64,000 nt of DNA from Amia ocellicauda (lineage: Eukaryota; Chordata; Actinopteri; Amiiformes; Amiidae), in assembly GCF_036373705.1 (NCBI RefSeq), contig NC_089864.1, forward strand, positions 14,170,001-14,234,000. The letters run 5' to 3'. Below, piece after piece: positions 27,309 to 64,000 of this stretch; the first letter of the stretch is position 1; each line of letters starts with the position of its first letter. Position numbers and translations under genes: made by a program. The notes below the pieces were generated by a model. That model did not search any database. It was given only the letters and a program-made list of their open reading frames with translations, and had not been told where the DNA came from.

Positions 27309-28909
27309 GTCACAAGCCATGCGGTATAAAAAAGATGTGGACACAGATTCCCTGCCCCTGGTTGGTAATATTAAGACATTTGTTTGTTTTATGATACATT
27401 GTTTATCATTAAAAGCAGTGGCATATATAATGGTGGGAGCTGCATGGCATCAATACGTTTTTATCATGATGCTTGCAACACTTGTGCTACAAGTTTGCAC
27501 ATGGCAAGTGATAAATTAGAATTTCAGATTGCCATTATGACCAGGCCTACAAAATCCAGGGGTGTCCCTTAAGATAGGGAGTCTGGATGCAGCTAGATAA
27601 GGGAGGGAATTTGGCTGCTGTAACAAGTTGTAGCAGTAGGTGATAATGAGCTTTTGAGAATCTGGGGCTGGGGTGGGGGGTGGGGGGTCTCTGAAATACA
27701 CATTTTGAAACTTTCCTTGTTTTCACAGGAAGAATAAATCCACAGCCGTGTGGTGTTTGACAGCAAAACGCATTTAATGGTTTAAACTGCTGCTCAACAA
27801 TGTCTGCAAAGGCCTGATAAGAGAGCCAAGGATAGCTGGGAAATTAAAAGCCTGCTCTTAGATTTTTCAGTGACAGGCAAAATCACAGTTACATAGACAA
27901 TAATCTGGTAACTGATTACATTACTGTGTTGGATACCTGCTTTTCTTAAAAATATAATTGTTATTGTTATTGCTATTAACTGTTGTTGTTACACTGCAAG
28001 TTTGTTAACATAGAAAGCATGGCATTTACACATACCTAAAAACTTTAAAATATATTACCTCTGTTACTCCAATGAAAAAACACAAAAACTAATAGGAAAT
28101 TTCAAATCTATTACCCCCAATAATTATTTAGGTTATGCCAACAAAATTACATATTTCAGTTTGTAATTCACTTTTTAGAAAATGTAAAAGATCACATAAC
28201 CTTACCAGAATTGTATGACATACATTACCTACCAGATTGGCAACACCCTGATTCCCCATGATATCCAACAACAAAATGTGATGCTAGACCCATGTAGAAC
28301 TACAGATAATTGCGTTAATTTAGTCAGTAGAAATGCTGTACTAACCTTAACAACAGTCTGGAATAAACTGTAATCCTAATTTAATCACAAAAAATAATTC
28401 TAGTACATAATTTAGATATATTACTCTAAATTACTCCAAACACCTACACCTGGTTTTCTCAGTATGTTAGAAATGGGAAACCCTTGAATACTGAATATGT
28501 AAATATGGTTGTCGTGCAGATGTCCTGTGATTAAGTGTTTTTTGATGGCCTCGGTTTCTGAGAGGTTTACCTGGTACTATATGTAAATTGCTTTTACCAC
28601 CTCAGTCTCTTAAATTAAATGAACCCCTGGCTAGGAAGAAACCTCTCATGTAAGAAAATGATTTAGTTTCTGTGTCTTTCAAATAAGTCCCTTTTTGTAT
28701 TGTCCCATGACTGTAGCTTTGTCTGAGCAGAGTTAAGATCACCACTAAGGGGCTATGGTGGTCCACAAACAGTCACATGTCACTGTAGATTACTGATCGG
28801 GGGCCTCTAGTGATGACAGACGTAAGAAGTAAATCCTGCTTAAGCCTGTCTCGTGATGTAGCTCCTGTGATCTGTTCTCCTCCACATGTGATGAAACAGT
28901 TTACATTAC
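27309..28909. other. intergenic DNA
   Basis: Nothing is recognised beyond a short G-rich run near 27665-27690. Confidence 0.4.
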
Positions 28910-29062
28910 CTTCAGCTGTGTTGCACGTTAAGTTCAGATCCATCATGAATTTGTTCATTGCATTAAAACAAGTGAAATCTTCAACGCAGGGCTCTTCTGC
29001 GCATGCCTGGCACGTGTCCACACACTGCCCGAGTGAGCCCTTCATCACAATGGTAAAACTGT
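28910..29062 (-). other. exon-like segment encoding a cysteine-rich peptide, unknown gene
   Basis: On the - strand a CCAG acceptor is followed by 153 open bases (51 codons) and a GAAG|GTAATG donor. Both boundaries are phase 1, as in many extracellular-domain exons. The peptide has seven Cys, including CVDTCQACAEEPC, and an N-glycosylation sequon (NLTC). The frame also continues as an open stretch from 29075 to 28773, starting right after an in-frame stop. I do not recognise the family. No partner exon was found nearby, so it may be an exon of an unannotated gene, a relic or chance. Confidence 0.35.
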
Positions 29063-32000
29063 CTGGATTGTCCATTCATAGATTTTTCCTTAATTGAAAG
29101 CCCAGAGCTAATAAATTGAATATTTTAGCTGAGAGAAGGAAAGCTTAATGGCTTAGTCTGTCTCTGAACTTAACATTCCCACAGTAGCACGATTAAATGG
29201 TTAATGGTCTTCAGTTTAATACCAGTAAAGTTTTCTTCATCTGCTAAGTTTAAGCAGTTGCTACGTTAAAGGTTGTTTGAGGGGTAAGTGATGCAGCACC
29301 AGTCTATAATCTCCAGCAGTCTAGTGATCGTTTATAGGTTATTGATTAACCATATGTGCCTAATATTTAAATCTATACATTAAATACATGTGTATGCTTG
29401 ATATCTCAAAATTACAGCTTTACTGTTCTTTTGTTTTTTGTGTGTGGTAGAGCATTTGCCTACTTCAGTGTTTGTCATCAAAACACAGCTCCTGAAGAAA
29501 GGGTTTCAGTCTAAGAGGATCTTGTTCAAGATTTGGTTCACAGGCCTCAAAGCTTAATGGAAACACTTCAGGCCTGGCACAACAGCAAATTAGATGCAAG
29601 CTTTTTCTGTTAATCCCTGACTATTTGTATTGGGTTCTTCAACAAAAGAACAAACAAACTAACGAGCCAAATATTTTCTTTCATAGCTGTGTAACAGTCA
29701 CAGAGCTCAAATATTAACTGATTTCCTTCCATCACACCAACTTTACTGCACATGTTAGGGAATTGTATTAAACTAGCCTTCTTACCCTAGATGTAACAGT
29801 AAGGACAGCTCTTGATTGTGGTTTATACCATTCTGCAACAATGTATCCTAATGAACACACACATAAGCAATAGCTCAGAGTTCACATAGCAACTGAAGGC
29901 TGTTGGCGTTTCCCTGATTTGGATTAGCAGACATTCATTTCAAATAAGGGAGACTGATTGCCTGACGTCTGAATTGTTGAATCTAAATGTTTGTCTGAGT
30001 GAATGCTTATTGAACAGAAGTGTCACAATTCCCCAAAGGCTTAAAATCGCCGCAATTAAACCTCCCAGTTCCAGCTTGGTCACACAGTTCTACTTTGCAG
30101 CCAGAGGAGGACTCCCTGTAGTGTACAAAACTGTGTGCTAGTCATTAGATTTCCACCTCATTTACAGATAATGTTTCCAATGCTAAATCTGTTCTGTTCA
30201 CACTAATGCTACCATTACGTACGGGATGCACTTTACAGTGAACATCAAGAACAAATCTGGCAAATCAGTATAATATAAATACATAAAAGTACAAAAACTG
30301 CTACTTGGGGAGAGCTTATTGAAGTATATGTGATTGCATTACATTGGTATTGTACTTATTCAAAGCAGTACAGTTGTCCTGGTGGAATCCTGTGCACTGC
30401 TTCAGTCTGGCACGGACTCTGATTTTTATGCATCTCTTCAATCTGGAACGAATGGACTCTTGTAGTACAGAAGCATGACCATCATCTCTGCTTAAGTGCC
30501 TCAGATGAAGGTACTGTGACACTGTGTGGGGTTGCACACAACATCTGGGACTCTATAGGCAGGGTCTATAGAAACAGCGACAAACAGGCAGGGGAAGAGG
30601 CTGACAGAGGGGCAGGTTTATTATTTAGTGTGGAGGTGAGCAAAACAAAGACACTCCTAGCTTCTTGTCGAGCCTAAATATATCCTCTACTGACAAAGAC
30701 AAACACACTCAGCAACCATCCTAGTCTAGTCTATAAACCATAGTTCATTACCAAAAAATTGACTTTGAATATGAAAATTGGAACCTGTTAAAGAAATGAT
30801 CTGGTCACAGGTTGTCAAACTTGGTGAGGATGTATTCTTCAGAGCACTGTTTCTTGCAGTTGGGATTGTGGCAATGAAGCAATGAAAGTGGCCATGGTCA
30901 CTTGTTACTTTCAATCTGTTCCTGATTTGAAAGCCAGCATTGAAAGCCAGGCCTGTTTCAGCTTTGGGGCTAGATTAAAACAAGGTGCAGAATTCCAGCA
31001 ATAATAATACATATACAGTATGTCTGGAATGTAATCAGTATTAACAATGCCCTATTTACATTTGTTTCCAAACTGTCCATAGCTTTCCTTCTCTATTCAA
31101 ATGGGATCAGTTCAGATTACTTGGATTCCCTGGGCAATTATGCAATCATACTACTTCATGATAGCAAACATAGCAAGTCAATCCTTTAAAGGCTTCATTT
31201 TGTATTTATATTGTTTAAAATGAAGATAATTGTGCTTTATTACTTCCTGTATGAGTCTGCGTATTCAGTTTCTAGCTCATTTGCTATGCTTCATTTGTCT
31301 TCCTGTGAATTACCCGCTGTACCTGTTCTCACAGGAACAAACCACAGAGTGATAAATATACCATTAGATGACATTAGGTGATGGCCTAGATTACATTATT
31401 GTCACTTATGGTTTTAGAAAGTGTTTTGCAGATGCAAATCAAAGATGAATCCCTTTATACACATTATAAAAACAACTAATGTAAAATGGCATTAACTCCA
31501 AACTTATCAATTGATATTCAATGAATTTCCCACATAAAAGTTTAGTTCCCTTCATAAAGTGATGATTATTTTTTCAGAGGAACAAATGTCCCCGAAATGA
31601 TTATTATTGAAATGCCAATATGCCTCCATAAACTTCAGATCCTTTTTAAGTGTTGACATGATTGGTACCTAAATCTCTGAGATCAATACCGAGATAATGC
31701 ATGTAGTTGACATATAAACATATGTTTATAGTTCAATTAGATACATTGTTTATATATAAAGATGATGATGTAATAAATAACAATATTTAAACAGCTCCTG
31801 TATAATTAATGTCTGACTTCATAAATGTACAGAAAACAACAAAAAACAATATGTATTACAAAAAAGAAGGCTCATATAATTAATATGCTATGGCTAATAT
31901 CCTGAGTTCATGAGAAACTCCCAGAGGAAAAATAAGTAAAAATACTGAATAACACCCACCACACACACACACATTCAAAGATGACAAATGTTCCGTTCAG

Positions 32001-44717: not shown

Positions 44718-47700
44718 ATGGAAAATAGAGAAATAGATCGTTCACAAAATGTCATAGAGAAAATAAAAGGGTATATAATCAAACGACTGGTAAAAGATAC
44801 AGATGACGAGTCATCTTCTGAAGAGGACGACGAAATGGGCGATTTAGAAGAGATACGTTTTTCAGGTGGACTACTTATCAAGTCAAAACTACGACAAATA
44901 CAAGGTATTTAATTGCATGGAATTGTTTACTGTTATTTACAAAATTTGGATATTATTATTATTATTATACCCATGTTGCACAGGTGATATCAGATAGAGA
45001 CTACCAGGGACAGTATAAGCATACAGTTCACTCCAGTTATTTCCTAAATATTTGACGAGTAATGGATAAATGTGCATTAAACAAAAACTGGGACATTTAG
45101 AAATCTCAGTACTGTTTTTGATATCAGTGACAGTTTACAGATTTAGTCAGAGGTTAAAAAATATTATATTGTGCTGTTATATCAAAATATTTGTTACTAA
45201 TAAAACATGGTTGAGTTACTAAATTAATTACATTTTAATATATAAAATAATGGATGATAATCTGATAAGGACAATCTGGTTTTAAAAGAGCGGGATTTTT
45301 TCTCTTGGGTTCATTCCAATGTTTGAGGTAACTGTTTATCCTTTATGACTCACAGTCATTATGTCTGGCTAGGAGAACAGTGGGGAATATGGGACTGAAA
45401 TGTTATTGTTATACTTCCTGTGTTATGCTTAGGATTGATATAACAATTCCATTGCATAGCACTTTGAGCCATTTCACATTGTAAGAGCAGCAGCTGTGCT
45501 AGAAATAATGTACTTGTTACCTTTTGGAGTTCAAATAATATTGTTTTGGAGTCAAGGATACTACACAAAGGATGAGAAGCCTATGTTGTTACCATGGGAT
45601 GTGTGAAGTTTTGTAACAAAGCTACCTATTGGCTGCTGTATGCTGTCACTCAAGCAGCCCTCTCCTACTTGACACACAGTAACTAAGCCTCATTTTCTGC
45701 CATTCACTGTCGTGGCCCATCCTCTTTGGATTTTGATAATTTAAAATATTTTATATCTGTTTTTCTGTCTTAATATATTATTATATTATATTATATTATA
45801 TTATATTATATTAATGCAGTATACTTAAGCCAATTGCTAGTGTTTAGTGTTTCAATTCAGTTTTAGTCTTTGGAATATTAATTAAATTATGTTAATTTAC
45901 CTTTTTTAACTTTAGAATTAAGACACTTCAAATGTGTTAGCATTTAAATCCATACAATAATTGTGTGGCAACTTATTACACTTATTACTTACCAAATCAA
46001 ATTAATTAATGAACAAATTAATATAACAGATAAGGAATCTTCACTATTACTCTAAGAATATGTAAGAATCACGGACTGACATTCAATATAATTATTTTAC
46101 CTCCAAAGTGTTCATGTTTGTCTAAGAAATAAATAAACGGATCTTACAAATGGAATTTGATGTATTTAACTCCTCAAATTAATTGTATTTTTTCCAGTCA
46201 TATTGTAACCACATTCAGTTTCGTTTCCTGTAGTTAATATCTTAGGACATTTTCTTCGTTTTCTCATTGTATTTGAAATGTTGCCAGATTGCAGATTTAT
46301 TTCTTCCAAGTATTGAATGAATGGTTACTCACAATTTAGGAACTAACCAGTTGTATTGACCGTGCTGGATAGCCAAGCTACTAATTTATTTTTTTTAAAT
46401 CAGTTAGCATATAATAGCTAATGATGATAATACTAACAGCAACATTATAGATAATGTAAATAGCATCCTGTCTTCTTTGGGGCCTCGACAACCAGATGGA
46501 ACATGTGCTGTAGCTAATGCACCTCCAGCTGGCCAGCCAGGCCACCCCAGACCCCCATTCCACAGCAGGGCAAGTGCTGCCACTATCACTATGGGTGGGA
46601 ATGAAGCTGCTTCATGTGCTTTAAACGCCTAGGTCTTGGAGGACCTAGAGAGTCTAGACAAAGACAGGCCTGCCTCGAGCATGTCTGTCCAGATGGGACA
46701 GATCCCCTGGCCTAAGTACCTGTTCCCCACTCTGTACAAAAGAGGGTGGCCCATGTAGCATCTGCTGAGGGCTGTTCCCCTACTGCCGAAGTCCAGGCTT
46801 TGTGGGGACATCCAGCATCTGCCCCTGGCCCAATTCATGGTGACAAGGCTTTCTGCAAAACTCTGGGGAGCACAAGAGTTGGGCTTAGTTCCCTTTCCTC
46901 TGGTTGATTCCACCATCAAAGCCATGGTGTTCCTCTTGCATATCTCTGTGGAATTCCAGGACCTCTCCTGCCCTAACCGGCAGTGCAGCATGACTGTCAA
47001 TGCTACGCAGGGCCCATGCAGGAGGTGCACAGTCATGAAAAGGCTGCGAAATACACAGTCTGCTGGCTCTGTACATTGCAAGCCTAGGAGGCTGCTACTC
47101 TGCTACTCCCTGCAGTTCCAGGCCTGCCCCCCCACTTTCAGGCTTTCAGGTGTGTATTTTGCCATGGACGTCTGGTGGCATTGAACATTCTACTGGTGTG
47201 GCTTTGTCCTGGGCACATTTTCAAGGTGCCCCACTGACTGGAATCCGGTGTTGACTTGTAAACATGTTCTTGGCCTTTTCTTGTTTGGGTTTGACGGTTG
47301 AGCTATGTTTTTTCTCCCCAGCTCCCACCATTGTTCTGCCTGTCTGCCAGTCTCTATCTACTGATAATAAAGATGATTTGATTTGATTGTTAATTTGATT
47401 TCCCCTTAGCAGGCTGTGGCCTCAGGGCAAAGTTCCTAACCAGTCGGCTGCTGGTTTCCCTTGTGACAGCTTGGGCTACCATAACCTGAGAGACAGTTTG
47501 AGAAAGAGGATACTACCCAAAGGCAATGAGGTCACGCCTGAGCCTTTCTGGTTTCCAGTAAAAATAAGACTGAGTTACTGTACGTCACAGTTTAGCAAGC
47601 AGGGGAGGACTGCTTGAGTGACAGCATACAGTAGCCTATAAGAAGCTTCATTAGACAACTTTCACTGATGGATCCCATGTAATGTATTACAAGAGAAACT

Positions 47701-50700
47701 AAAGGACTAAAGAAGCATCTTTGTAGCATTACAAAACTTTTCAAATTTTGAGGTGATGATACATGTGGTGAATGTGTATTTTAGTTTCTTTGCAGGTGAC
47801 ACAAGGCAAGAAAAGAATAGAAAGAGTGAAGGGCCGCTTTCCATTCATTGACTCCTGGTGGGAAGTTACAGGAAAGATACATGCGAGGACCCTAGTGGGT
47901 TATCCATCCTACAGTCTGCGGAAGAACTTGGGGAAAGATGCAAAATCAGTTATATCAGAGTTTCTGAAAAAATGTAAAACTACTGAAGATTTCAGAAATA
48001 CGTTTTTAGAATGGGCAGCAAAGAATAGCATTACTGACCTGGAAGACCTGGAAAATAATTTGAACACGTTCAAAGACATGCATAAAGACAGAGATTTTGA
48101 ACAAAACCTGGAAAACATCAGAACCTCAGGTAAGCAAATAGGTTCATTGATTTGAATCCTTAATTTATAATTGTAATAATTGATTCACTAATAGGGGCTC
48201 TAATACATTTATATTAGGCATTTATGTAAGGATGATGAAGTCTGTAAAAGCACACACTAAATTCTCAGTTTCTCAAATTTACAGTAAATTACTTTTCAAC
48301 TATGCCAGTCTAGTGTAATTGAACAAACAAAAGACAAAATTTTAGAAGTACTGAAGACAGACCGATGGTTAGTCAAATTGCAATGCCAAGGCTCAGCTCA
48401 GCCGACATCTTTACACAACTTGAAACCTCTGCTTCCCACAGAAATGCTATCTATGATTATCTAAGACAATAAAAATAGTTAGTTACCATTGCTGTTAGGC
48501 ACAGAGAGGCCAGATAAGGTCTGTTGAAAGACATTATTTCAATGAATTGTTTTTTTAGTGTTGCATTATCTTTAATGATTACATGAAGTCAGGAACTCAC
48601 TTTAACCTTTCATCTGAAGGATGGCACCTTTCATTGTACTGGGGTGTTGCTTTTTTTTGTTAAGTGCCTCCTACTGGCACACCAGCATCAATTCCAACTA
48701 CACCATGCTTGGATAAACTGCAACCATAAAGCTGCAAATAAATACAGTTCCTCTTTATGATTTATCTATCCAAATAAAACTGATAACACATTGCCATACA
48801 CCAGTGCTACACCTTTACTGGAATCAACACCTGCACAATATTTTAGATTAGAATAGGACAATAGGAATTCTATAATAAAATGTAATCCATTATTCACTGT
48901 GATCTATGATCTTATACTGAAACTAGCAAGATAAACAACTACAAACAGCAACTGACCAATTAATTACTGGTTAATCTATAGGCTTCTCTTCACAATTAGA
49001 TGATTGACTACTATGATCTACATTATTTTTATATAAAGTCTTATATAATGGCAGGTGAAGGAGGTTGGGACTTTATTATATCACACAATCGACCTAGTTA
49101 GAATGCTCACATCTTCTATTTACTTTTGTGTAAAATCAGATGAAGGAAGAGCTGTTCTGGCCGCTTCAAAATACCCATTAATAATGCAGCATGGGCCCAC
49201 ACTTTTACCTGAACAGTTTACAAACTTGTTTACAAGCAAAGCAAGAAGCATTCTTGGATCTCGCATGGTTCAAGAAAACATCTTACAAAACCTGCAGGAG
49301 ATCATACAGGACAATGTATGGAAGCTAGGCTTTTCATGTGTAAGTATATGTTTGCAATAATCATTCATTTATTTTATGGAAATGTTAATATAGAATTATT
49401 GATTATATCTGTCTAAACAATCATTATTAATTGAACTTTGAACAATCACAATTGCAGTTTTGAAAGTTAGGAAATTATCTTAAATAAATCAACTGCAAAA
49501 GTTACACTTTATCAAAAATTAAAACGTTGTATAGGTTTATATTGTACAACCTTCATCAAAATTAAATAATGTTTTCAAATCTATGTATTTATATATTGGT
49601 ATATTTGCCTAAGAATTTATTATAAGTTTCAATGAGCCAATTATGTTGATTAAAGTCTAGACAAGCTTCCATAATACTTTTTCAGTGCATGATTTGCACA
49701 GAATTTAATGCGTTTTTACTGATTAATTATTTTTGCAGATTACATCCAGAGAACTTGGTCTTGTCAATTGTGAAAGTAATCTGGAGGCATTCAAACAATG
49801 TGAATTACACATGGAAGAGCTGCATATGAATGCCCTGAGAGTATACCATGAGATTAAAAGGCAATGTAGAAGATGGGGGCATACCTATGTTAAAACACAT
49901 GATATTCGTCGGCAAATGCAATTGACAGATGAGGAAATAATGGAAGCCATCAAGTTTTTGAAAACACATGAGATTTTGGTGGCGGAAGATACAGTTGATT
50001 TATTTCTGGACATTTATTTAAGGAGTGAAAAGGGTATAGCTACCTGTCTGGGAAAACTGTCAAAGATGCCCCTGTGGATGTCTGACTTGACAGTGGATAA
50101 GGTGATCGAAGTTGCAGAGAGAGAGTCTGATGGGCAAATGCAGTTTGACACTGATCAGGAAAGTGCACTCCAACTACTGTGCCACAAAAATGTAGTAGCG
50201 ATAAGTGGGAACGGAGGCTGTGGCAAAACTAGTGTTGTCTCCAGGTACATTGAGGCAACCTTATGTGATCTAGATCATAAACAAGAAAACTCTAAATGTG
50301 GCCATCAGAAAAGAGCTCAAAGGAAGTATCCTGAAATTCTCTTGACTGCCCCAACTGGAAGAGCAGCTACTGTTTTAAGGAAGAAGACGAGATTAAGGGC
50401 TTACACTTTGCACCAGGTATGTCGTTTTAATGTATTTAAGAATAGAATACAGAATACAAACATTGGGTCATCTCAACCCATACTACTTTTTTAAGTTATT
50501 AGGGTAACAATATAACATAGTGTGAAACAAATATGATATATAATAAACAACCCATAATACATTCAATTCCAGCAAAGAATGCGGTATATCCAATGTGTTG
50601 GATGCAGTTACTAATGCTTATTGGACTTTAACGCTATATTTTTCTCATATTAGTATTTTTCTTTATTTTCTAGGTGCTGTTTAGTTACTGGATACATAAG

Positions 50701-53291
50701 AATGAACCAGGCTTTCCAGAGAACTGGTTGTATGCAGAGACTCAAGTCCTGGTGGTTGATGAGGGAAGCCTGGTGTCAGTGAAAATCCTTTACTGTGTGT
50801 TAGAAGCATTAGAAAAACATGCTAAACTCAACAAGTTTATCATAATGGGTGCGTTTATTTTATAAAACACCTTTTTTATTCTGAAGTGTCAGAGCAATTT
50901 CAGTTCCCAAGTAAAAAAAAAGTTATTAATCTTTTTCTAAAACTAACAATTGTTTCTTGTAATGGACTGATTTGCTGCCAAAGCGGCATTACACACAAAC
51001 CTGTGTTGATTCCTTGGATAACAAGTAATACCAATAAGAAATAATTTAGGTGAATGAACTCGTCAGTAGCGACAGCATATGTGTTGTCTAATGCCTCCTG
51101 CATCCACTTCTACCAAGCAGGCAGCAGGTAAGCAGGTGACAATGGGGCTGGAATAAAAACTATTCGACACAGTGATCTTCCAGGACCAGATTTGGAACAG
51201 CTTCTCCATGTATTATTTCATGCAAATTTAACAAATTAGCTATGACAAATCGCCTCCAAATACTTCTGTCATATTATTAATGTGTATGTTTTATTTTTAG
51301 GTGATGTTAAACAGCTTCCCAGCATTGACCCTGGGAATACACTAGTTGACATATTTCAGAGTCTCAAGGAATTCCGATGTGCCATAGAACTGACAACCAA
51401 TCACAGATCAGAGTCACAGCTGATAGTAGACAATGCTGCAAGGTATGTTTTCTAGGTCTTTTTTTAAATACAGAATAATATTTGAACCCTGTTTTGAAGC
51501 CAGATACAGCCAAAATAGCCTATGCATTTTCCAGCACAAATTGGCACAATCGTAGCACAAAGGACAAAGACCACTTTGAAGTAATTAAAATATATTGTTT
51601 AATATCTCAAGAACCATGCCGACATAAACTGTGATTTTTGCTGCACAAACCAGCACAAACATAGCAGAAACAAATGACACCACTTTGGATTGATTTGGAG
51701 TTTGATGGGGTGCTAGGTGACGTCACTCATTAAAAAGTATTGCTTAATAACTCGTGAAATAAAATAGCACAAATGTTTCTTTTAATGGCACAAACCAGCA
51801 CAAACATAGCACAAACGAAAAGGACTATTTTGTTGTGATGTGGACGTTGATGGGGTGCTGAGTGATTTCACAGCTCATAAAATATAATCTTTAATATCTC
51901 GGGAACCATACTGGCACAAACAATGATTTTTGCGACACAAACCAGCACGAACGTAGCACAAACTAATGCATATACACCGATCAGCCATAACATTATGACC
52001 ACTGACAGGTGAAGTGAATAACACTGATAATCTCGTTATCATGGCACCTGTCAGTGGGTGGATATATTAGACAGCAAGTGAACATTTTGCCCTCAAAGTT
52101 GATGTGTTAGAAGCAGGAAAAATGGGCAAGCGTAAGGATCTGAGCGACTTTGACAAGGGCCAAATTGTGATACCTATATTGTAAGTTGAAAGTAATAATA
52201 TAGTAACTATTAAGTATAATGCTGACTTAATGGCTGTTAATATCTCATAGGATTTGGAGGAAGGAAATGCCACAATTTGATGCTGAGATAGACATCAATG
52301 CTATAGACACAGCTTCAATGATGTCTGACAAACGATTTATGTTAGTACCTCTGACTCGTGGGACAAATGACGGTGAGTACAGGGTTCAACCCCAAATAAT
52401 CATCAATCATACCAAAATAAATATTGCTTGCAGATAGGGTTGTGCATCTTTTGCTTCACAACGTCCAATAACACTTTGCCTAGAGTCTAGACCAAATCAA
52501 AGCAGACCTTCCAGTGAATTGCAAATTATAAAATACTCTATCACATTTTAAATGAAGTTAGTGAAAGTGGCTTTTGACAAATAATTGACTGCAGTAGGGT
52601 ACAGGTTTTTATTTTGTGGTGTGCACATATGTCAGATTTTGTATTTGGTCTAGTGGCTAGACTCTAGCCCATTGTTTAAATATTTGTATTCAATATCCTC
52701 TATACTATAAATAGAAGGCTTGCAGCTCAGCTATGAAATTAGATCAGCAACCTTAAGATATTATATTGTGATGAGCTTCATTTTAACTTGATATCTTTTT
52801 ATCTATTTATCTTTATCTATTATGCTTTTTATCCAACAACATTGAATAATTGCATCTTTAATGCAAATTAAATGTCAATTTTATTTCCCCACCCTCTGCC
52901 AGCCAATTGCCTTTTTTTCACAATTAAATGTTGTTTCTGCACTACAAAACTCTTATAACATTAACATTGATGACAGCTTGTTGTTTAAGAAACCATGCTC
53001 AGTTGTGGCTTCATTTTTAGTGAGATGACACTTTCTTCTAATCATAAATGTAACCACTATGATGTACAGGTTTGTAGTTTGCTATTAGCAGGTGGGCCAA
53101 AGTTTTGATTTAATCCGGCCCCTAGTCTACCTTTCAATGTTGCACATTCCCAGTCTGAAGAAATATTAATTCAGTGTAGCTGGACATTGTGTTTCAGTTC
53201 TAGGTGTAACCGTGTTATCTACATTGTTGCATCTTCTCAAGCAAATGGATACATTTTTATGGATTTCACCAGAGCATTTCTGTTCAGAATA

Positions 53292-53360
<69 letters not shown>

Positions 53361-56300
53361 CTTATCCAGGGCGACTTACAACATAAGTGCAAAAGAAAGT
53401 ACAAAAATACAGTTAAGTAAAAGACATCAATCATTACAAATTCAATTTAACTAAAACATAGCAATTCAAATATTTGACATATCAAATTGAATTCATCAAG
53501 TTCAAAAATGGTTTTTGGATTATATCTGAACTATACTTTGGATTTATGTATTTATCAAGCCATTGCTATATCCAGTCAGATATTTGTTGTAATTTGTATT
53601 TACTTAATGCAATAAGGAATGCACTATACTGATGCAACCAATTAGAAAGTAAAATATGAATTATTACTGAGCTCACATCACAGTGTTAAGTGGATTACAT
53701 TTATATCTGTTTGTATGGGAATGAAAGATTTCTTATCAATTAAACCTAAAACTATTATTTCCATTGTTCATTTCTTTATGTCAAACCTATGTAGAAACAT
53801 TTCAATAAATATTATTTATTTTAGATTATCCCTCGCCATCAGCCCATGCACGTCATCGAGTGTGTACCTTAATAGTAAAGCTTAATAGTAAAGCTATTAA
53901 ATGTTTTTGTATAAATATGGTGTACAACATAAATTGTTGTCAATCATTTTACTTTTGGTACTTTGTTATTATTTAAGTGTTGAGATGCTTTCCTGTGTTT
54001 CAATTAATAAACTAAATTTAACAGAGAGGGAAAAAAAGTAATACTAGTAAATAAACTAGTAATACTACTAACTAGGCCAACAGGTACAGTTGCCTCTAGA
54101 ATTATTCACATCCTTCATAGACTACAGTGGGTTTTAGTGACAAAACATATACATTCAGTATCTGTTGCTTAAATGAATGACAACTACATATTAAAGTATA
54201 TGTTAAATCATATTCGGTTTATTTATTTTTAAACATTTAAGTGTCCCTTGAAACCAACTGTAGTTTAATTAGTAACAGCACCAGTGAGGTTCAGAAAAGT
54301 AGGAAGTGGTGATTATTGTTTAGGGTGACACAGTTAAAACAGAAATAGTACAAGACCAAATAAATGCTTTAGTAATAAAGTAAAGTGGAACTTTGTAAAA
54401 AGCTCCAGTTTCAATTGCATTGACTTAATTGTTCTTATAGTTTGTACAATACAGTATGCACACCATTTGTAAGGATTTTTATTTATTTTTTATATAATCA
54501 GAAATGGAGACAAGTTTAATCGTGCCAAAAGATCAACTGACAAGAGATTAATATATAAGAAAGGGTCCCACTGCAGCAGTGTTAGTTGCCTACCCTTAGC
54601 GAACCCCAAGCGATGATGTATTAACAGTAACTGGTATCAGACATACAACACAAGCTAAGATCTTAAGACTTGAGAGAATATTTTTTAACAGACACCCTTA
54701 TCAAGGATGACTTAGTTTACACAAGAATCATTTTAAAGCATTACAACAGTGTCATAATACAATCAATACAAAGTACAATTTAGAGCATTACAAATGTGCA
54801 GTAGTACAATTAGTACAAAATACAATGAGCATACATCCTAGTACAATGAGGTAACAGACATGTGCAGACATAATACAGTATTATTATGCAGAATTTAATT
54901 AATTAGTTGCTGACAAAATGTCATAATTCCTATTTCAATTTGCAGAGCTAAAGGAAGTTATTGAAGTACTCAAGAGGTTTGTTCCGGGGCTGCAGGATGC
55001 TTCTTCCTCACAGTTTATAACATTTAAAAAGTAAGAACTGAATCTAATTATTACATTTTATTTTTCAGGTTTGTTTTTATGATAATGCATAAAATAGAAT
55101 CAGGATCTCTCTGTTTGACCTGTAATGAATGATAACAGAATAATGGTACTAACCTCTGCTGTAATTTAAGAACATTTAAAATCATATCTTTTAACTTACA
55201 TTTGCATTAGAGCTAACATATAGATTTATCTAGTGTGAGATGCCCTTATTAGATAAGTTAGCTAAGACTTTAATTAGAATTAGCATTGCATTTCTATACA
55301 GTAAACTAAAACACAATGACTAACAATTTGTCATTTCTTTTTAGATGTTCGCTAAGTTTGGGGCTTCCGGCTATTAGTTAATTCCACTTCCAATCTTCCA
55401 CTTATGTTTTTGTTTTTTGTCTATCTCCAACCAAGGCTAAATCCAAATAATTCTATTTAGGGGTCAAACTAGAGTCAGGCTTTATGCTGGGCTAGGGTTA
55501 GTTTAAAAGTAGATTTCCATGTGTGTTGGTTGATTGCATTTTTACCAGGTACACTAAAATTGCATATAGGTTCAATTTTTTTTTCAACATACTGAGAAAA
55601 CAAAGAAGGTATATATCAGAACATAAGAAAGTTTACAATCGAGAGGAGGCCATTTGACCCATCCTGCTCGTTTGGTGTCCATTAATAACTGAGTGATCCA
55701 AGGATCCTATCCAGTCTATTTTTAAATGTTCCTAAATTTTCAGCTTCAACCACATCGCTGGGGAGTTTGTTCAGATTGTGACGACTTTCTGTGTGAAGAA
55801 GTGTCTCCTGTTTTCTGTCTTGAATGCCTTGAAGCCTTGAAGAATATATAGATTGTATAGAGATACATAAACATTTTAAAAATAAAACACACAGAATCTT
55901 TATTTGCAGTGTGTTTATAATATATGTACAGTGAATAAAAACAAACAAACATGAACAATAGAATGCATATACATTTGTATGATTATTCTTAATACGTTTC
56001 ATGTATATTTAAATAATATACTGTATGATTTATATTAATATATTTAGAATAATGTATTCATATATTTTTTGTCTTATGTATTTTCAGCGATGACTGTGAT
56101 TTCATAAACAACCTATGCTGCACACTTTACTCTTCTCATCAAATGAAGTGAGAATTTCCTTCATTCTTATCAAACTTATTTATACAATTCTATGTCAGTA
56201 TTTATATTGTGGTAAGATTTACTGTGCATATTTACAGCTTCAAAGATATTTATACATATGAGTAACACAAATCTTTAGTAGTATTTCTTTGACTGGAAAT

Positions 56301-58765
56301 TCTATTATTTTTTGCATTGTGTGAAAATGGGTGACTGTAGCACTAGTTATATTTATAAAGGTCACAGTTTCAGTAAAGACAAGGTGTGTGGTAAAATGTA
56401 AAAAATAAAATTGTGTGTAATATTTTAATTTATCAGTCTTAATATTTTAACTGCAATCCATTTTTTCTTATGTATAAGATATAAGACCAGGTTCATATTC
56501 AGCACAGGTGACAAAGTCTGTTGTACAAAGAATGGAAATGTTTCAGACTTCTTGTATGTGAAAGACAGCAGATCTAAAGAACCCAGCAAAGACTTTGTTC
56601 GACTTCATAATGGGGAGATAATGTTCATTGAGAAGGTAAGTTTAATTTCCAAGCATTTTAAACAAACACAAGAGTCAAGGAAGAACCATATCTCATAAAG
56701 CCTTATTATGTTTTGATTTGTTAGATTACAGATTATGGTAAATGATAAAAGTAACACAAAATGCTGAACATTACCATGTAAAATAACATTTACAACAATC
56801 ATATCTACATAAACCAATAGTTTGTACACAAGCCAGGTGCATTAATTACATAAAAAAAAAACATTTACAATATGAAAAACAAAACAATATAAAGTATCAT
56901 ATCTTTATTTCAGGATAGTAATTTCAAAATATATAAAAAATGATATTTAAATATTAAATTGCTGAAATGAACAGCCTATAATGTGCAGTTTGGTGATCTG
57001 CATTTGATCAGATAGGTCTGTAGCTTATACGGAAATTCAGCCTACAAGCAATAATGAGCAAACAGTTCAATATACATAGTATAATGTGTGATAGGGTTGG
57101 AGGAAACAAGGGAATTAGAAGACTTAATAACTCAACATAAATTTAGAAAAAAACAGTTATATTAGTTTGACGATTATGTGGTGTTTGATTGCTTTATAAC
57201 ATTCTAGAGCTCTACGATGATACAGTAAATAAAATAAAAGTGCTGATATGCCACTGAAACCTTACCTCTCTCTGCCTGAACTCTGCTGGTGTAATGTCAT
57301 GTTTATGGAGCAGAGTAGAGCATTTCTAGCTCGCTTCCCTGAAACAGCAGTTTAAAAATATTAACTAGGCAGAAAATTCACTGCGCACTTACAGCAGCTA
57401 AGGGCAACCAAATCTTCAAATGTTTAGTATTCTGCTGTCTGTTGTTGAAGGAATAGTTTGGGGAAGTTAGACACAACTAAAGTACAGCATGGTTTATGTG
57501 ATTAGATCCTGTGCATGTATATTTTTTCAATTATTTTATTTTTTAAATGTAATTAATATTCACAATAAAAAAATCCAGTGGCTGTCTGTGTGACATAATG
57601 TGTATGTATATGACAAGGAACAAAGGTAGCTTATTGTGAAAGAGGTTTGCCTAGTGGAGGAGGAAAATGTGTAATCTTATGCTGTAGCACAAATTAATCA
57701 GGCATAGCTCCATCAATGTAGTCTGGACCACAGGCTACAGAACACCTTGCATTGCATTTTATACACATTGGTGTTTATTGGTACACAGGATTGCAAAGAC
57801 TATTCAGTTTATACTCTATACTTTAACAGTTTTATTATTTCCAGGATGAAGTGGAAAAAAATGACAAACGATACCTGACACTAAATAATGGAGATGATTA
57901 TGAAGTTAAGGCATCTTGCAGTGCTTTAAGGAAGGACTGTAAATTGAGGCATGCATGGGCAAGAACCATTCACACATACCAGGTAGAACAATTCCTTTTG
58001 AAAATGTCTTACATTTTCTTATTTAATGCACCTTATTTAAGTTGTGCTATTAATAAAGACATTGCCTTTGAATAGTTAAGCACTTGATTTAGTAGACTTA
58101 TGCTGAGTGTTTATACATTTAATAAATACATGTATTAACATGAGCTGATCATGCTTTATTGTTAGAGCCTAAATCGTTTAGATTTTCCGCATGGTCATTT
58201 CAGGAATTATGGTACTGTAGACATTTTTGGACTTAACCACAACACTAGGTTGTTCAACAGCTTATAAAAAAGTAAAGAAATATGGGATTTCTACGGGAAA
58301 GAAATCTCTGAACAATTGTATGCATACTTATATATAATTACTGTGCAGATGCATAATGTATACAAATATTGTTTTATTGTTCAGAGTTCAGAAGTTCCAA
58401 CGCTGGTATATGTGATGACACCGACACAGTATCAGAACGTACAGCATCTATACACTGCAGTGACAAGAGGATACCAGCGTGTTTACATTGTGGCAGAAAG
58501 AAATGTCCTTGAAAGTGTTTTGAATAAACCAATCAATAAAAGAAAGACAAAAATGCAGGAGCGACTGAAGAAAGCACTCAGGTGGACCGGACACAAAAGA
58601 CCAAGGTCACCTGCCCAGCCTCAAGCTCCAGCTCAGAGCCCTGATGAGACTAGAAGGGAAAATGAAAGAGATGTGTTCCTCCCGCCAGAGCAGTCAGAAC
58701 ACAGTGCATTTGATAACAGTGAGGAAAGTACTTCTGCAGAAAATGCTCCTGATGGTGATCAATAG
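44718..58765 (+). CDS. helb: DNA helicase B, first tandem copy (helb-A)
   Basis: HELB is a superfamily 1B 5'-3' helicase acting in replication-stress recovery and control of end resection. Exons: 44718-44904, 47806-48129, 49140-49339, 49739-50416, 50674-50848, 51301-51442, 52251-52372, 54946-55030, 56088-56147, 56479-56635, 57845-57982, 58385-58765. They join in frame to give 882 residues (human about 1087). Helicase motifs in order: Walker [11 protein letters not shown] (K400), [10 protein letters not shown], Walker B VLVVDEGS (D492, E493), [38 protein letters not shown] (R784). The N-terminal HELB-specific domain shows [12 protein letters not shown] and WKLGFS. Odd points: the start does not resemble other HELB N-termini, the segment between Walker A and LLTAPTG is short and basic, and the C-terminal tail is about 98 residues. 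Exons 2 and 10 use AAG acceptors, chosen by phase and similarity. Confidence 0.92.
45779..45812. repeat. (ATTAT)n tandem repeat in helb-A intron 1
   Basis: About seven units of a five-base AT-only repeat. Confidence 0.85.
46440..47395 (+). mobile_element. probable retroposed insert of unknown family in helb-A intron 1
   Basis: This GC-richer, intron-free block differs sharply from the AT-rich intron. On the + strand it has a long near-open stretch (about 46630-47160, with stops) that I cannot assign. It ends in AATAAAG (47366-47372) followed at once by tandem GATTT units (47374-47388), as expected of a reverse-transcribed insert. No reverse transcriptase or protease motif is visible. A decayed non-LTR or DIRS-type retrotransposon piece or a processed copy of a transcript are alternatives. 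Confidence 0.4.
51532..51970. repeat. imperfect tandem repeat with GCACAAAC cores in helb-A intron 6
   Basis: The block CAGCACAAAC (or near match) recurs at 51532, 51651, 51796 and 51943, spacing 119, 145 and 147 bases. Each unit also has an ATATCTC(A/G)(A/G)GAACCAT-type stretch, a GATTTTTG stretch and, in later units, GATGGGGTGCT. This is three to four diverged copies of a unit of about 145 bases. Family not recognised. Confidence 0.7.
51973..52170 (+). mobile_element. truncated Tc1-like transposon, 5' end, in helb-A intron 6
   Basis: It starts with the inverted-repeat end TACACCGATCAGCCATAACA of a fish Tc1-like family. It runs into the first codons of a transposase (ATG at 52122; [16 protein letters not shown]) and then stops abruptly. 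The 3' end is absent. Its end lies 80 bases before helb-A exon 7. Confidence 0.85.
53293..53360. repeat. (ATT)n microsatellite in helb-A intron 7
   Basis: About 22 perfect triplet units. They are followed directly by CTTATCCAGGGCGACTTACA (53361-53380), the reverse of the common fish SINE tail, so the run may be the tail of a SINE. Confidence 0.9.
54687..54875 (-). repeat. SINE-tail-related repeat in helb-A intron 7
   Basis: The stretch starts AACAGACACCCTTATCAAGG, a diverged form of the fish SINE tail on the reverse strand. It is followed by repeats of ACAA(A/T)..AGTACAATTAGTACAA type. It is related to 43180-43395. Confidence 0.45.
55614..55855 (-). mobile_element. CR1-like LINE fragment (reverse transcriptase ORF end) in helb-A intron 8
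   Basis: On the - strand it encodes the characteristic LINE ORF2 ending around [20 protein letters not shown], like the 'WNSLPE.VV....FK.RLD' end of CR1/L2-type proteins. The + strand carries the familiar block GAGGAGGCCATTTGACCCAT. It is only a fragment, without catalytic motifs. Confidence 0.75.
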
Positions 58766-58837
58766 GAGACTCCTTCAAAACAACCCAAACTGACAGAAAG
58801 CATGATAAATTAAATGAAGGATCCATTACAACAAAAA

Positions 58838-59158
58838 TGTTACTTTTATTTACTTTATATTCTTTATCTTATTAATGGTTTCATGTTGTTGATTCAGTTT
58901 TGTCTATAACGCAATCATTAGTTTGTATTTAACCCTTTCTGTGAGCTATTTTATTAGTTTGCTAAAGCATTTTGGTCTATAGTTTCATACCGAACTTGAG
59001 ATGCTACAGAAATCTGCCGGGGTCATGCAGCCCTGCCTCTGCCCTGAGGTTAATTGTTTCTTTAATTGTATCTGCTATTGTCTTTTGGATACTTAATCAA
59101 TGACTGCATTATTATGCATGTGGTGAACTGAACTGATACAACTGGATTTGATTGAGAT
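58838..59158 (+). mobile_element. LTR-like repeat, copy 2 (3' truncated)
   Basis: Aligns with 61477-62012 through blocks such as GTTGTTGATTCAGTTTTG, AAAGCATTTTGGTCT, GTAGTTTCATACC (here TAGTTTCATACC) and ATTATTATGCATGTGGT. It lies directly after the helb-A stop and probably falls in its 3' UTR. The polyadenylation-signal part seen in the other copies is missing. Confidence 0.55.
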
Positions 59159-60600
59159 TAACTTCAGTGACACGCTGTTCATGGACAAGATAATATTGTT
59201 TGTGAATGCTTCAGGCTCGATCAGGATGGATGGATTCAAATAGACGAAATAGGCAGCAGATGCCCCAGTATAATCAAGCAAGAAGAACTTTTATTCACTA
59301 GTTAAATAAACAAATAAAATCTTGTATACAAAATATACATATTAGTTATAGCAATATTCAATGTATCAGCTAGCCCAGGTATTACTGTTGCATCTATTAG
59401 TTGCTGCCTTCACAGTTGCTAATTTCTTTCCCACACTGCAGTTCTACTAGCCTCCAATTCCACTTCAACAGCTCAACAACAACTGAGCTACAACAACTCT
59501 GTACACAACTCTGTACACAACTCTGTACACAAGGCTACAGCTCTACTTTTAGAGTCAGCTTGTGGAATGTCCCCCACTAGGTTCCACCCATATGTCCTTA
59601 TGAACAGAATTCTAGATTTTCTAAAAACAAATTAATGTAGCTTAAGGCAAACCAATTTGCTGAATTTATATGAGATCTGGAAGCTTGTGTTAAGTAAGAT
59701 AATACAATGAAAGTCCATATAGAAAATAACTAGAGAACAGTCTAGAATATTGTATTACAATGAAACAATGCTATTCATTTCAATTACTAGAACTTTCTAA
59801 TATTATAGCAAATACATATATAATCTACAATATAACATTTATTCACATGCTCTTAATGTTGTTACTATACTTCATGCATATGTTAATCCAGTTTATTTGT
59901 TATAACAACGTTTTTATAAGAAATGTTTTTTTATGTGTGCATACCTTTTCTTTGGTGAAAGGTGAACTATGTAGGCTTCTCGTATTTGTTTGCAATGCCA
60001 ATATAATGAGAAACACTTTGTGTTGTGTGTCTTGTGTAAGTGATGAAGATGTCATTTGCCGCCACACTAAATTGCATCATGTTTGTGCAAATAGCTCATG
60101 TGAGAGAATAATGAAAATAAATGTTCATATAGTTGACATGAAGTGACAGAGCAATACACAAACAAAATAGTAACACAACGCAGATTTACACTCTACTGTG
60201 TCTAATCAATTGATATTTCTTGCATTATGTAACCTTATTATATGCCTGTATTTCTATAACCTCATTAAAATTAAAATGTTGAAGTAGTGTCTGTCTAATT
60301 ATACTATTTTTTACACCACATAAACAAGCATATAAACTTGCTAGAGCACACAGATTACACTCTCAGCACTGTTGTCCATAAAACAGATACACACCACCCC
60401 TCTACAATTCCTTCAAATACAAAAGTTATTTCTACAATTTATCCTGCCATCACAGTCACTTTCTGAATTATGAAGAGATGGGGAGCTCCCAGCATTTTTA
60501 CAGAACACAAAAAACTCAGTGTCTTACTAAATGTCCAATTCGGAAAGTTATGGGATTGCAAAACCCCCCAGCCGGAATCTCCAATAGGGGGCGTCCTAAC
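59159..60600. other. intergenic DNA between helb-A and helb-B
   Basis: AT-rich. A 12-base tandem repeat (ACAACTCTGTAC, about three copies) lies at 59493-59532. No gene is recognised. Confidence 0.45.
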
Positions 60601-60754
60601 AAACGCGCAAGTAAAAGTGAAAGAACAGCCTCTTTGCTCCTTCCGTAGTGACGCATGAGTTCAGAGTTCAGCGTCCTCCAATGAGCAGCGGCGCTCGGGT
60701 TGTTGTGGCAAGTATGAAGTCAAGGCGCGTAGAGTTTCCGTAGTTGTAGCAAAT
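60601..60754 (+). promoter_or_regulatory. helb: probable helb-B promoter/5' UTR
   Basis: CpG-richer sequence upstream of the helb-B start. It contains GACGCATGAG (60650-60659, shared with the helb-A upstream region) and a CCAAT box (CTCCAATGAG, about 60675). Confidence 0.45.
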
Positions 60755-62026
60755 ATGTCTTGGTTCGCTCCTCCGCCGGGCAATACGACTTTGGTCGGTT
60801 ATATTTTACCACCAAAAGAAAATTCAGCGCTAAACGAGGAAGATGATTCTCCGTCGGAGGAAGAAGAGGAAAACGAGCCGGAGTTTTTAGACATTACGGA
60901 GATGAGCAGCCTGTACGCGGGAGGACGTGTCGTCAAAGCCTGCCTCCCGACGCGCAGAGAAGGTAATAACTGCAGCCCGGCCTGCAAACTACACTGTCTA
61001 CATTGTACAGCTGTACTTCTTAGTTGTATAATATTTTTAAAAACGACGCATTTCCTTCGAGAGATGATTTAATGACGAGGGTTTTAATTTATGAATAATG
61101 AGAGTACAGCTGACATCAAAAGGTACTCTTTGTGTAAAGCATAAACAATCTATACAACAAAAACTGTTCTTGCAATGTGTACGTGCATTTTAACATTTTG
61201 TTGTTGTTTTACTGCCTCCTCTTGTTATTCTTAGCATGCATCTTTGTGCTTTTATTGCAGTAGCTGTATCATTTTTGTATTTAGCGACCGGGGTTTGTAG
61301 CCATAATTGAGCACTTCTGGTATTTTTGCAAAGATAAAGATGTCAACATCAAATTGTAAATTGTTAAAATATGGTTTTTGCATGACTTCAAGATTGCTGT
61401 CCATCAGTGCTCCCCAAGCAACTTGTCAGAGCTTCAACATTTTTCTAAAACATTGTCTAACATTGCCCCACCATTTTGTTGTGGGAAAACGTATGTTTAT
61501 TATGTAAATGTATATCTTATTAATAATGTCACGTTGTTGATTCAGTTTTGTATATAAAACAATCATTCGTTAGTAGTTACCCCATTCTGGGAGTTGCTTT
61601 AATTATTAGTTTGTTAAAGCATTTTGGTCTGTAGTTTCATACCAAACTCGGGAGAATGCTACAGAAGTCTACCAAAGTCAAAGCCATTCATTGTTCCTTG
61701 AGGTGTATACAACGACTGTCTGAGAGGGCTTTTGAACCAGCCATTGTCTTGAATACTTAACCAACTACTGTCGTTTGGATACTTAATCAATGACTGTATT
61801 ATTATGCATGTGGTAAACTGAACTCATACAACTGGATTTTAATGAGATGTAATCACTTCCTACAGATACGATACAAAAAGGCTTGTTCCAACTCGCATCT
61901 CTAGTTAATTTTTTCACTGAATGTGAGAGGAGGGCTCTGGGTTAACCTGAATTTATGTTTTATGTAATAAACTTGTTACTTCTTCATCCTGGGAATTAAT
62001 GAAACCACTACTGGATGATGGTTATG

Positions 62027-62065
<39 letters not shown>

Positions 62066-64000
62066 TTTACTTGAAAACCCCAAATCACAATATAAAATGC
62101 AAATACAATAATGAATTTCATGTTCACAAGTGTCTGGCTTTACGATTGGTAGCAAGATCCTACCTAATTCATTAATCATTTAATAAAACCTCTTAGAGTT
62201 GCCCCCTGTGGACATTTTTAATGAAATGCAAATGACAAGAGCATGCAACATCCACTGGGAATTAAACAAAAAAATATTTATTGAAATATTTACATTAAAA
62301 AAAAATCATCCCCTTCTCTAAATTTAACAAGTTTTTTTCTTCACCCAGGAACTTGTTCAGATACAGCCATACATAGATAGTCAAGCAAGTAATGCTTTTA
62401 ATAACAGGAAAATAGGAATAACATCCTAATTAGGCTGCCATTGAAACATTATGCTAGTTGTTTCCAGAGATCTGCCATACAGGATAGGCTTTGTCTTGTT
62501 TGAGTCTATTTTCTGTTTTTTAAATGACCAACTCCAGTATATGGCAAAATGCATTACTCCTAACATGGACATTCTTCTGCATTTCCTTTAACTCTGACTC
62601 TGTTAATTTGATTTTAGTGGATTTTCTGAACTTGGCATCAGGACAGCAGTGCAGGGTGGTGGGCAGGTTTGCTCTGCTGGACCCCTGGTGGGAGGTGACT
62701 GCTCTTGTACGATTGTACAAGTCCAGGTTGTGCCTGATGTGCTGTCCATTCTACAAACTGAGGACTGATCTCGGAGAAAACCCCAGGTCTGTCATTGCCT
62801 TATTTCTGAAGGCGTGTGGTGTCAGTCCTGACCATGTCACAACGTTCAGTGAGTGGCTGCAAGTGGGCATGAAACTGGATTTTTCAAACTTGCAGGAAAA
62901 GCTGGAGGAATTTGGTGAGGAAGGCAGTGATAGCAAAGCAATTGCAGGTTCCATAACAAAATCTGTGAACAAATCAGGTACATAAGCCAATATCTATATC
63001 CTTTATATACCTTTAAGCAGAACAAATGCATTGCTTCAATCACTCCTTAGCAATTAGTGCTTTTTCAAATCTGATGCATCTGACCCATTATTTGTGTACT
63101 TTTTGTGTAAACAATTTTTCTAATTAGAGTTTATTACATTTATGATGATGTTATTTAACATATGTCTTTGCCCAAGGTGACTAGAATGTTACACAGTATT
63201 TTAATATGTCCTCTGCATTTGTTCATATTTATATATTTTTTCTTTTTAATAGTAATTAGGAAATGTAAAACATGCCTGTTATTGACAAACATTGCAGAAC
63301 AGTGTTTTTGTACAAACCTACATTTGCTGTCTGTCAGATGTAGGTAAAACCGTGCAGGTAGCCTCTGGGCACCCACTGGTGATGAAGTACCTGCCTATAC
63401 TGCTTCCTCGTAAGTTTCGAAACTTGCTGATGAAATGGGATGCTGTACAGGAGAAAGGCATGGAGGCACAGATGGTGGCGCACCCTGAGGATGAGGTCCC
63501 CCCAGATACTTTACTGAACAGGCTGGAAAAGCTTATCAGGACAGATGTTTGGAAGCTGGGTTTTACCAAGGTGAGCCTGCGATTATCGCTGCAGTCGGGC
63601 AAAGGGCAAATCCTCTTTTCAGAAATGTGTTCATGTCTTTCAAGAAAAATAAATCATTAGCACCAATGTGCATGATGTATTGTAATTTTGTAATTGTAAA
63701 GTGACTTGACTTTCGCTGAATACAATAATAAAACATTTTAATTGGTGCTAAAAATCCACCAGTGTTTTCCTGCGTCCCTGTCAGAAGCTTATCATGGTCT
63801 GTCTCCCCTGTTAGATTCTTCGTAAGGAGTTTGGCATCATTCACTGTGAGGCAACGTTGGAGGCGTTTCGTCAATGTGATCTTCTCCGGCAGATTCCTGA
63901 GCTGCAGCGCAAAGCCCTGCTGGTATATGACACACTGAAGCGCATCTGCAGGAGCAATGGCTGCACTTATGTTACCAAGTACCAACTCGACAGTCACCTG
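60755..64000 (+). CDS. helb: DNA helicase B, second tandem copy (helb-B), 5' part
   Basis: Four exons are visible: 60755-60962, 62642-62977, 63338-63570 and 63815 to the window end (at least 62 codons of exon 4). Intron phases (1, 1, 0) equal those of helb-A. The N-terminus has a LPP motif (YILPPKEN), a long acidic run (SEEEEENEPE) and FLDITEMSSLYAGG, matching the usual HELB start better than helb-A does. Exon 2 has VVGRFALLDPWWEV, exon 3 KYLPILLPRKF and WKLGFTK, and exon 4 starts ILRKEFGIIHCEATLEAF. The helicase core lies beyond the window, so it cannot be judged whether this copy is complete. I infer it is the ortholog-like copy and helb-A the derived one. Confidence 0.9.
61477..62012 (+). 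mobile_element. LTR-like repeat, copy 3 in helb-B intron 1
   Basis: Starts TGTTGTGGGAAA and ends CCACTACT, close to the TG...CA ends of copy 1. It has AATAAACTTGTTACTTCTTC near its end (about 61967-61986). At 536 bases it is longer than copy 1, with extra sequence in the first half that is shared with copy 2. No internal coding region is attached. Confidence 0.55.
62026..62064. repeat. (AAT)n microsatellite in helb-B intron 1
   Basis: About 13 triplet units, starting 13 bases after the LTR-like copy 3. Confidence 0.9.

Follow-up and report, generated by a model that had tools for sequence, protein, structure and literature searches.

Two complete HELB genes, designated helb-A and helb-B, lie head to tail on the plus strand of the Amia ocellicauda genome, within and immediately downstream of a stretch of 64,000 bp (contig NC_089864.1, here C21; C21:14170001-14234000; "the window"). 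helb-B is predicted to be the conventional copy, with an RPA-binding motif and with CDK-type sites in a long C-terminal tail. helb-A is probably an old tandem HELB paralogue kept by selection, whose protein would have a working motor and would not be recruited by RPA through the HELB-specific motif. As judged from its sequence, helb-A is classed as a HELB paralogue by descent, and not as a conventional HELB, for want of this motif.

Both genes were modelled by hand, exon aligned to exon, with helb-B guiding the model of helb-A; helb-B was completed from 20 kb of downstream flank. helb-A runs from an ATG at 44718 to a stop codon ending at 58765 (coding span, 14.0 kb) and comprises 12 exons with a coding sequence (CDS) of 2670 nt for 889 aa. 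After 1,989 bp follows the ATG of helb-B at 60755, with a stop codon ending at C21:14244083, 10,083 bp beyond the window (coding span, 13.3 kb), 12 exons and a CDS of 3303 nt for 1100 aa. The end phases of introns 1-11 are 1,1,0,0,1,2,1,2,2,0,0 in helb-A and helb-B alike, and all 22 introns (11 per gene) have GT-AG borders. Exon lengths differ at nine exons, each time by a multiple of three, and helb-A is the shorter at eight of the nine. No frameshifts, lost splice sites or internal stops were found in helb-A, and a stop codon in frame precedes its ATG by two codons; the other two frames of the CDS contain 62 and 78 stops, which excludes a chance open frame. Mean donor scores are 7.2 for helb-A and 7.0 for helb-B (of 9), and the acceptor pyrimidine count is slightly lower in helb-A (8.4 vs 9.3, of 12). 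Possible polyadenylation signals are ATTAAA at 58809 and AATAAA at 59305 for helb-A, and ATTAAA at C21:14244764 for helb-B. A first-pass annotation of the window had described two HELB genes about 2 kb apart on one strand with identical early intron phases, the first of them open through 12 exons with helicase motifs; this description holds, with the agreement of phases extending to all 11 introns, and the helicase core of helb-B, which was to be looked for beyond the window, is present there with its motor motifs. The features of the pair are as follows; the helicase motifs carry the names (I, Ia, II, III, IV, V, VI) that we take to apply to them.

44718..58765, plus strand: helb-A gene, coding span, with exons 44718-44904, 47785-48129, 49140-49339, 49739-50416, 50674-50848, 51301-51442, 52251-52372, 54946-55030, 56088-56147, 56479-56635, 57845-57982 and 58385-58765 (manual exon model, GT-AG introns, no internal stops, Pfam AAA_30 with E 2.2e-20).
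49739..50416, plus strand: helb-A exon 4, 228 nt shorter than its helb-B counterpart, with the end of the N-terminal domain, motif I (GNGGCGKT) and motif Ia (APTGRAA) (exon alignment).
50231..50338, plus strand: stretch from motif I to motif Ia of helb-A, 36 aa, net charge +2, HELB-specific motif absent (comparison with helb-B, motif search).
50674..51442, plus strand: helb-A exons 5-6, with motif II (VVDEGSLVS), motif III (GDVKQLPS) and the motif IV region; the best conserved part of the gene (alignment).
58385..58387, plus strand: helb-A codon 764, Ser in motif V (QSSE), with Gly in helb-B and in four of four RecD2 proteins (QGSE) (alignment with RecD2).
58385..58765, plus strand: helb-A exon 12, with motifs V-VI (YTAVTRG) and a short C-terminal tail in which no full CDK consensus site occurs (alignment, site scan).
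60755..64000, plus strand: first part of helb-B, exons 60755-60962, 62618-62977 and 63338-63570, and exon 4 from 63815 onward; exon 4 continues past the end of the window to C21:14234720, and exons 5-12 run to C21:14244083.
C21:14234508-14234579, plus strand: RPA70N-contact part of the HELB-specific motif of helb-B, residues 499-522 (position calculated from the exon table).

By sequence, the HELB-specific, RPA70N-binding motif (human residues 496-526) is present in helb-B and absent from helb-A. The stretch between motifs I and Ia comprises 57 aa with a net charge of -5 in helb-B and 36 aa with a net charge of +2 in helb-A; no insert of this kind occurs in any of four RecD2 outgroups. The contacts of human HELB with RPA70N are given as E496, E499, V500, C504, D506, F507, D510, E516, W517 and T519 (PMC10479964; here and below, the articles are cited for the parts of their text available to us). 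Nine of these ten residues are found in helb-B at the same spacing, a score reached by none of 500 shuffles, and the human peptide of PDB entry 7xv1 (a 29-residue chain) gave an ungapped, weak match to helb-B (E 0.023 for a 78-aa piece of it, 0.75 for the full-length protein). The corresponding stretch of helb-A contains three of the ten contact residues at best and had no match in PDB up to E 10, and across the whole of helb-A the best gapless match to the contact pattern is 5/10, which is at chance level (36/500 shuffles). A weak, degenerate similarity within the helb-A insert (DLD--K/E) has the look of a remnant. The HELB proteins of human, mouse, chicken and zebrafish are depicted with the motif in a figure legend of PMC12147029. 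For the human D506G variant, the same source gives a peptide affinity about 10-fold lower and an impaired function in cells, with motor activity on naked DNA retained, and recruitment of HELB to breaks is described as dependent on the RPA-binding motif (PMC7290933).

The motor is represented in both genes by a Pif1/RecD2-like helicase of superfamily 1B (SF1B) with motifs I, Ia, II, III, IV, V and VI, as aligned with RecD2, and by the Pfam family AAA_30 (helb-A, E 2.2e-20; helb-B, E 5.2e-23). The N-terminal domain is common to both proteins (34-39% identity; motifs D[SP]WWEV and VWKLGF kept), and helb-A would thus be assigned the HELB N-terminal domain and gene structure through its agreement with helb-B alone. 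Counted from the start of motif VI, helb-A ends after 104 aa with two minimal S-P sites and no full CDK sites, and helb-B after 204 aa with seven S/T-P sites, two of them full CDK sites (SPAR, TPSK).

In the alignment of the two proteins 363 of 876 residues are identical (41%). By exon, identity peaks in exons 5 and 6 (57% and 66%, respectively) and is lowest in exon 7 (24%); exons 1-3 stand at 34-39%, exon 4 at 41%, exons 8-11 at 43-51% and exon 12 at 37%. The divergence, placed in the N-terminal region by the first-pass annotation, extends beyond that region. Identity at codon positions 1, 2 and 3 is 57, 66 and 35%, respectively. The nonsynonymous divergence (dN) is 0.56 by NG86 and 0.49 by maximum likelihood (ML); the silent divergence (dS) by ML is 16 overall and 2.2 in the core, and NG86, LWL85 and YN00 yield no dS. 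The dN/dS ratio, which was to be computed for the pair, is well below 1 by the ML estimates; no number is quoted, since three of the methods yield no dS and ML yields 16. Among the fourfold sites shared by both genes, 62 of 161 are identical (24% expected by chance). When neutral drift of the helb-B CDS was simulated at 0.1 substitutions per site, a mean of 11.6 stops and a minimum of four were obtained (n=200); helb-A has none.

Four bacterial RecD2 genes served as outgroups, picked for taxonomic spread among the 20 plasmid records listed out of 267; phage matches (28 records) were left out of this comparison, and a search for HELB outgroups by N-terminal patterns in bacterial and viral contig collections gave 15 and 20 pattern matches and no relatives. 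At the 210 core columns conserved in the RecD2 outgroups both copies match at 82, helb-A only at 12, helb-B only at 19 and neither at 97 (p 0.28), and at the 115 columns invariant in all four RecD2, with gaps counted as misses, helb-A matches 64 and helb-B 65. Where helb-B has the residue common to at least three of the four RecD2, helb-A agrees at 82 of 101 core sites; at the remaining core sites the agreement is 141 of 369 (Fisher p 7e-15). The helb-A core thus appears to retain RecD2-conserved residues about as well as the helb-B core, and neither copy seems clearly the faster in the motor, in a comparison to which four distant outgroups lend little power. The 11 of 11 shared intron positions and phases, the protein identity of 41% and the silent sites near saturation indicate an old, DNA-based duplication; together with the intact frame and the conserved core residues they support the earlier proposal of an old duplication kept by selection.

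The GC content at third codon positions (GC3) is 0.39 in helb-A and 0.59 in helb-B, with an intron GC content of 0.33 and 0.38 and a window background of 0.387. This sharp contrast of adjacent genes despite similar intron GC content may reflect expression, a history of gene conversion or local recombination.

For the origin and function of helb-A the following scheme is proposed. A tandem duplication of HELB at its usual locus would have given helb-A and helb-B, and helb-A would then have diverged, keeping its N-terminal domain and complete SF1B (RecD2/Pif1-like) motor and losing the HELB-specific motif together with about half of its tail. The helb-A protein is predicted to bind ATP and single-stranded DNA (ssDNA) and to move 5'-3', and would be neither recruited to nor helped onto RPA-coated ssDNA through RPA70N. 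Human HELB is moved out of the nucleus by a CDK2 switch; helb-A would escape such a CDK-governed tail and would not be exported from the nucleus in this way. It may act in a narrower setting, either on ssDNA low in RPA or after recruitment via its N-terminal domain, the retention of which points to recruitment by another partner; binding of CDC45 is described for this domain in human HELB (PMC7290933). By analogy with human D506G, helb-A would be expected to unwind naked DNA and to do poorly on RPA-coated DNA. A split of roles between helb-A and helb-B is plausible, with the loss of the RPA70N-binding motif as a concrete candidate for it.

Several observations weigh against this scheme. The Ser in motif V of helb-A may weaken the motor, and the Pfam family UvrD_C_2 is just under the cut-off in helb-A (24.9 vs 27.4 bits; helb-B, 35.9). 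helb-B itself carries Ala at the D506 position, and contact with RPA may already be weaker there; an acidic N-terminal stretch is common to both proteins, and other RPA-binding regions may exist. Simple patterns (KK/KR) resembling a nuclear localization signal number three in helb-A, one of them in the tail, and none in helb-B, so the shorter tail need not mean lost localization signals. The saturation of silent sites is near, yet incomplete, given the identical fourfold sites, and helb-A may have lost its function very recently.

Among the other explanations, helb-A may have kept a reduced, overlapping HELB role, through dosage or tissue subfunctionalization, with recruitment via the N-terminal domain or another RPA contact, such that the absence of the motif is of little consequence. 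The conserved N-terminal motifs and the shared acidic stretch are consistent with such a role, as are the contrast in GC3, which may point to different expression, and RPA-interacting regions besides this motif, which are allowed for in HELB (PMC12147029); however, D506G alone harms human HELB (PMC12147029), and loss of the whole motif should matter. We regard this explanation as unlikely.

Less likely again is that helb-A is a young or dying pseudogene, with expression lost and the frame as yet undecayed. The Gly to Ser change in motif V and a GC3 near the window background fit a pseudogene, as do the 250 bp upstream of helb-A, which are AT-richer and CpG-poorer (GC content 0.388, observed/expected CpG 0.64) than those of helb-B (0.484 and 0.96). 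Over the 250 bp that start at the ATG, observed/expected CpG is 1.46 in helb-A (GC content 0.308) vs 1.22 in helb-B (0.512), and promoter CpG was dropped as a sign for or against expression, since the upstream and downstream windows disagree. The absence of stops and frameshifts, the 11 of 11 GT-AG introns with donor scores like those of helb-B, and the core residues retained about as in helb-B speak against a pseudogene, and indicate that the frame of helb-A was kept for most of the time since the duplication.

It is improbable that helb-A represents the older form, with a duplication that predates the HELB-specific motif and a gain of the motif on the helb-B branch only. The lack of such an insert in the four RecD2 outgroups and the intermediate length of the helb-A insert (36 vs 57 aa) would suit this order of events; yet the DLD--K/E similarity resembles a remnant, though weakly, the shorter exons of helb-A (8/9) fit a loss in helb-A, and the depiction of the motif in human, mouse, chicken and zebrafish HELB (PMC12147029) would require a duplication before the bony vertebrates and a loss of helb-A elsewhere. 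An assembly artefact or a single read-through gene, to which the shared strand and the distance of 2 kb might point, is scarcely credible: no N runs occur in the 83 kb analysed, the protein identity of only 41% is too low for alleles or haplotigs, and each gene has its own start, its own stop and possible polyadenylation signals of its own. Misassembly, raised in the first-pass annotation as a possible cause of the adjacency, is contradicted by the first two of these observations.

The pair probably occupies the usual HELB locus, flanked by IRAK3- and GRIP1-like genes (gene names assigned by eye), presumably the gene order around human HELB. Upstream open frames encode a Bax1-I domain (minus strand; TMBIM4-like by eye) and Death plus kinase domains (IRAK3-like by eye), and a PDZ open frame (GRIP1-like by eye) lies on the minus strand about 8 kb downstream of the gene pair; 3 of 10 neighbouring open frames matched no Pfam family (window 24313-24540, window 28776-29075 and L010:8755-9033). 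When the genome (988 Mb, 385 contigs) was searched with the helb-A protein exon by exon, a procedure by which short exons can be missed, no third HELB-like place was found; all 21 candidates were scored, and their 20 places lie within C21:14214718-14243660, i.e. in the two genes. A weak AAA_30 place on contig C4 was rejected as a third HELB: by eye it looks like an IGHMBP2-like helicase, and its best Pfam family is AAA_11. Thirteen further AAA_30 places on other contigs are probably of Helitron or Pif1 type; 7 of 16 AAA_30 places lie within 3 Mb of contig C7 (17.5-20.4 Mb), each match interrupted by one or more stops, and are perhaps a Helitron or Pif1-like cluster. Matches to the Hox13 N-terminal family occur at 4 places on 4 contigs (all 4 candidates scored), which is consistent with four Hox clusters and speaks against the doubled clusters of a teleost.

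Repeats are found in and around both genes. The 3' flank of helb-A (58865-59158) and intron 1 of helb-B (61513-61848) share a repeat of some 320 bp, 73% identical and on the same strand. It was rejected as a relic of the duplication and is uninformative on that event, because its copies are dispersed over many contigs (40 of 460 candidate places scored; long non-self matches 71-84% identical). Intron 5 of helb-B holds a longer Tc1-like element (by eye; C21:14235438-14236403), the end of which recurs, inverted and with 97% identity, as a short element in intron 6 of helb-A (51971-52171); this suggests recent transposon activity in both genes. A Sleeping-Beauty/Tc1-type transposase open frame (227 aa; HTH_SB and HTH_Tnp_Tc3_2 domains) is located at 16245-16925 of the window (minus strand).

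HELB is treated as one gene whose cell function depends on the contact with RPA, and the age at which natural menopause occurs shifts with a variant in its RPA motif (PMC12147029). The statement of the first-pass annotation that no HELB paralogue has been described agrees with searches of the open-licence literature in PubMed Central: among the papers listed, none reported a paralogue of HELB or a duplicated HELB in fish, and the word paralog is absent from PMC7290933. Most subscription journals lie outside this scope, and gene databases may list a second locus automatically. If naturally maintained, a paralogue without the motif would show RPA-independent use of the HELB motor; helb-A may thus be a natural test of HELB action without RPA, and the helb-A/helb-B pair a ready comparison for which HELB tasks need the RPA contact. 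We put forward, tentatively and with less confidence than the scheme above, that a second HELB lineage of great age, not seen in human or the usual models, persists in non-teleost ray-finned fishes, and that it has shed the RPA-recruitment motif and serves as an RPA-independent motor with its own, perhaps germline, job. If true, this lineage would amount to a naturally occurring separation-of-function version of a gene with a tie to the timing of human menopause.

In comparison with known systems, both copies resemble vertebrate HELB in their SF1B motor, in the HELB N-terminal domain and in their position between IRAK3- and GRIP1-like genes, presumably as in human, and helb-B further matches in length (1100 aa; human HELB, 1087 aa) and has the RPA motif. 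helb-A differs from vertebrate HELB as a second copy of 889 aa, without the HELB-specific motif, with a short tail that has no full CDK sites, and with QSSE in motif V. The human D506G (rs75770066) and 3xA mutants resemble helb-A in that RPA binding is impaired there (PMC12147029), and is predicted from sequence to be so in helb-A; unlike helb-A, which is without the entire motif by natural evolution, they are point changes in a whole HELB. Bacterial RecD2 and RecD and T4 Dda (SF1B) share the motor motifs, with RecD and RecD2 as the top PDB matches of both proteins and Dda weaker, and the helb-B core is 26-29% identical to the 20 plasmid records listed out of 267; in contrast to helb-A and helb-B, these helicases have no HELB N-terminal domain.

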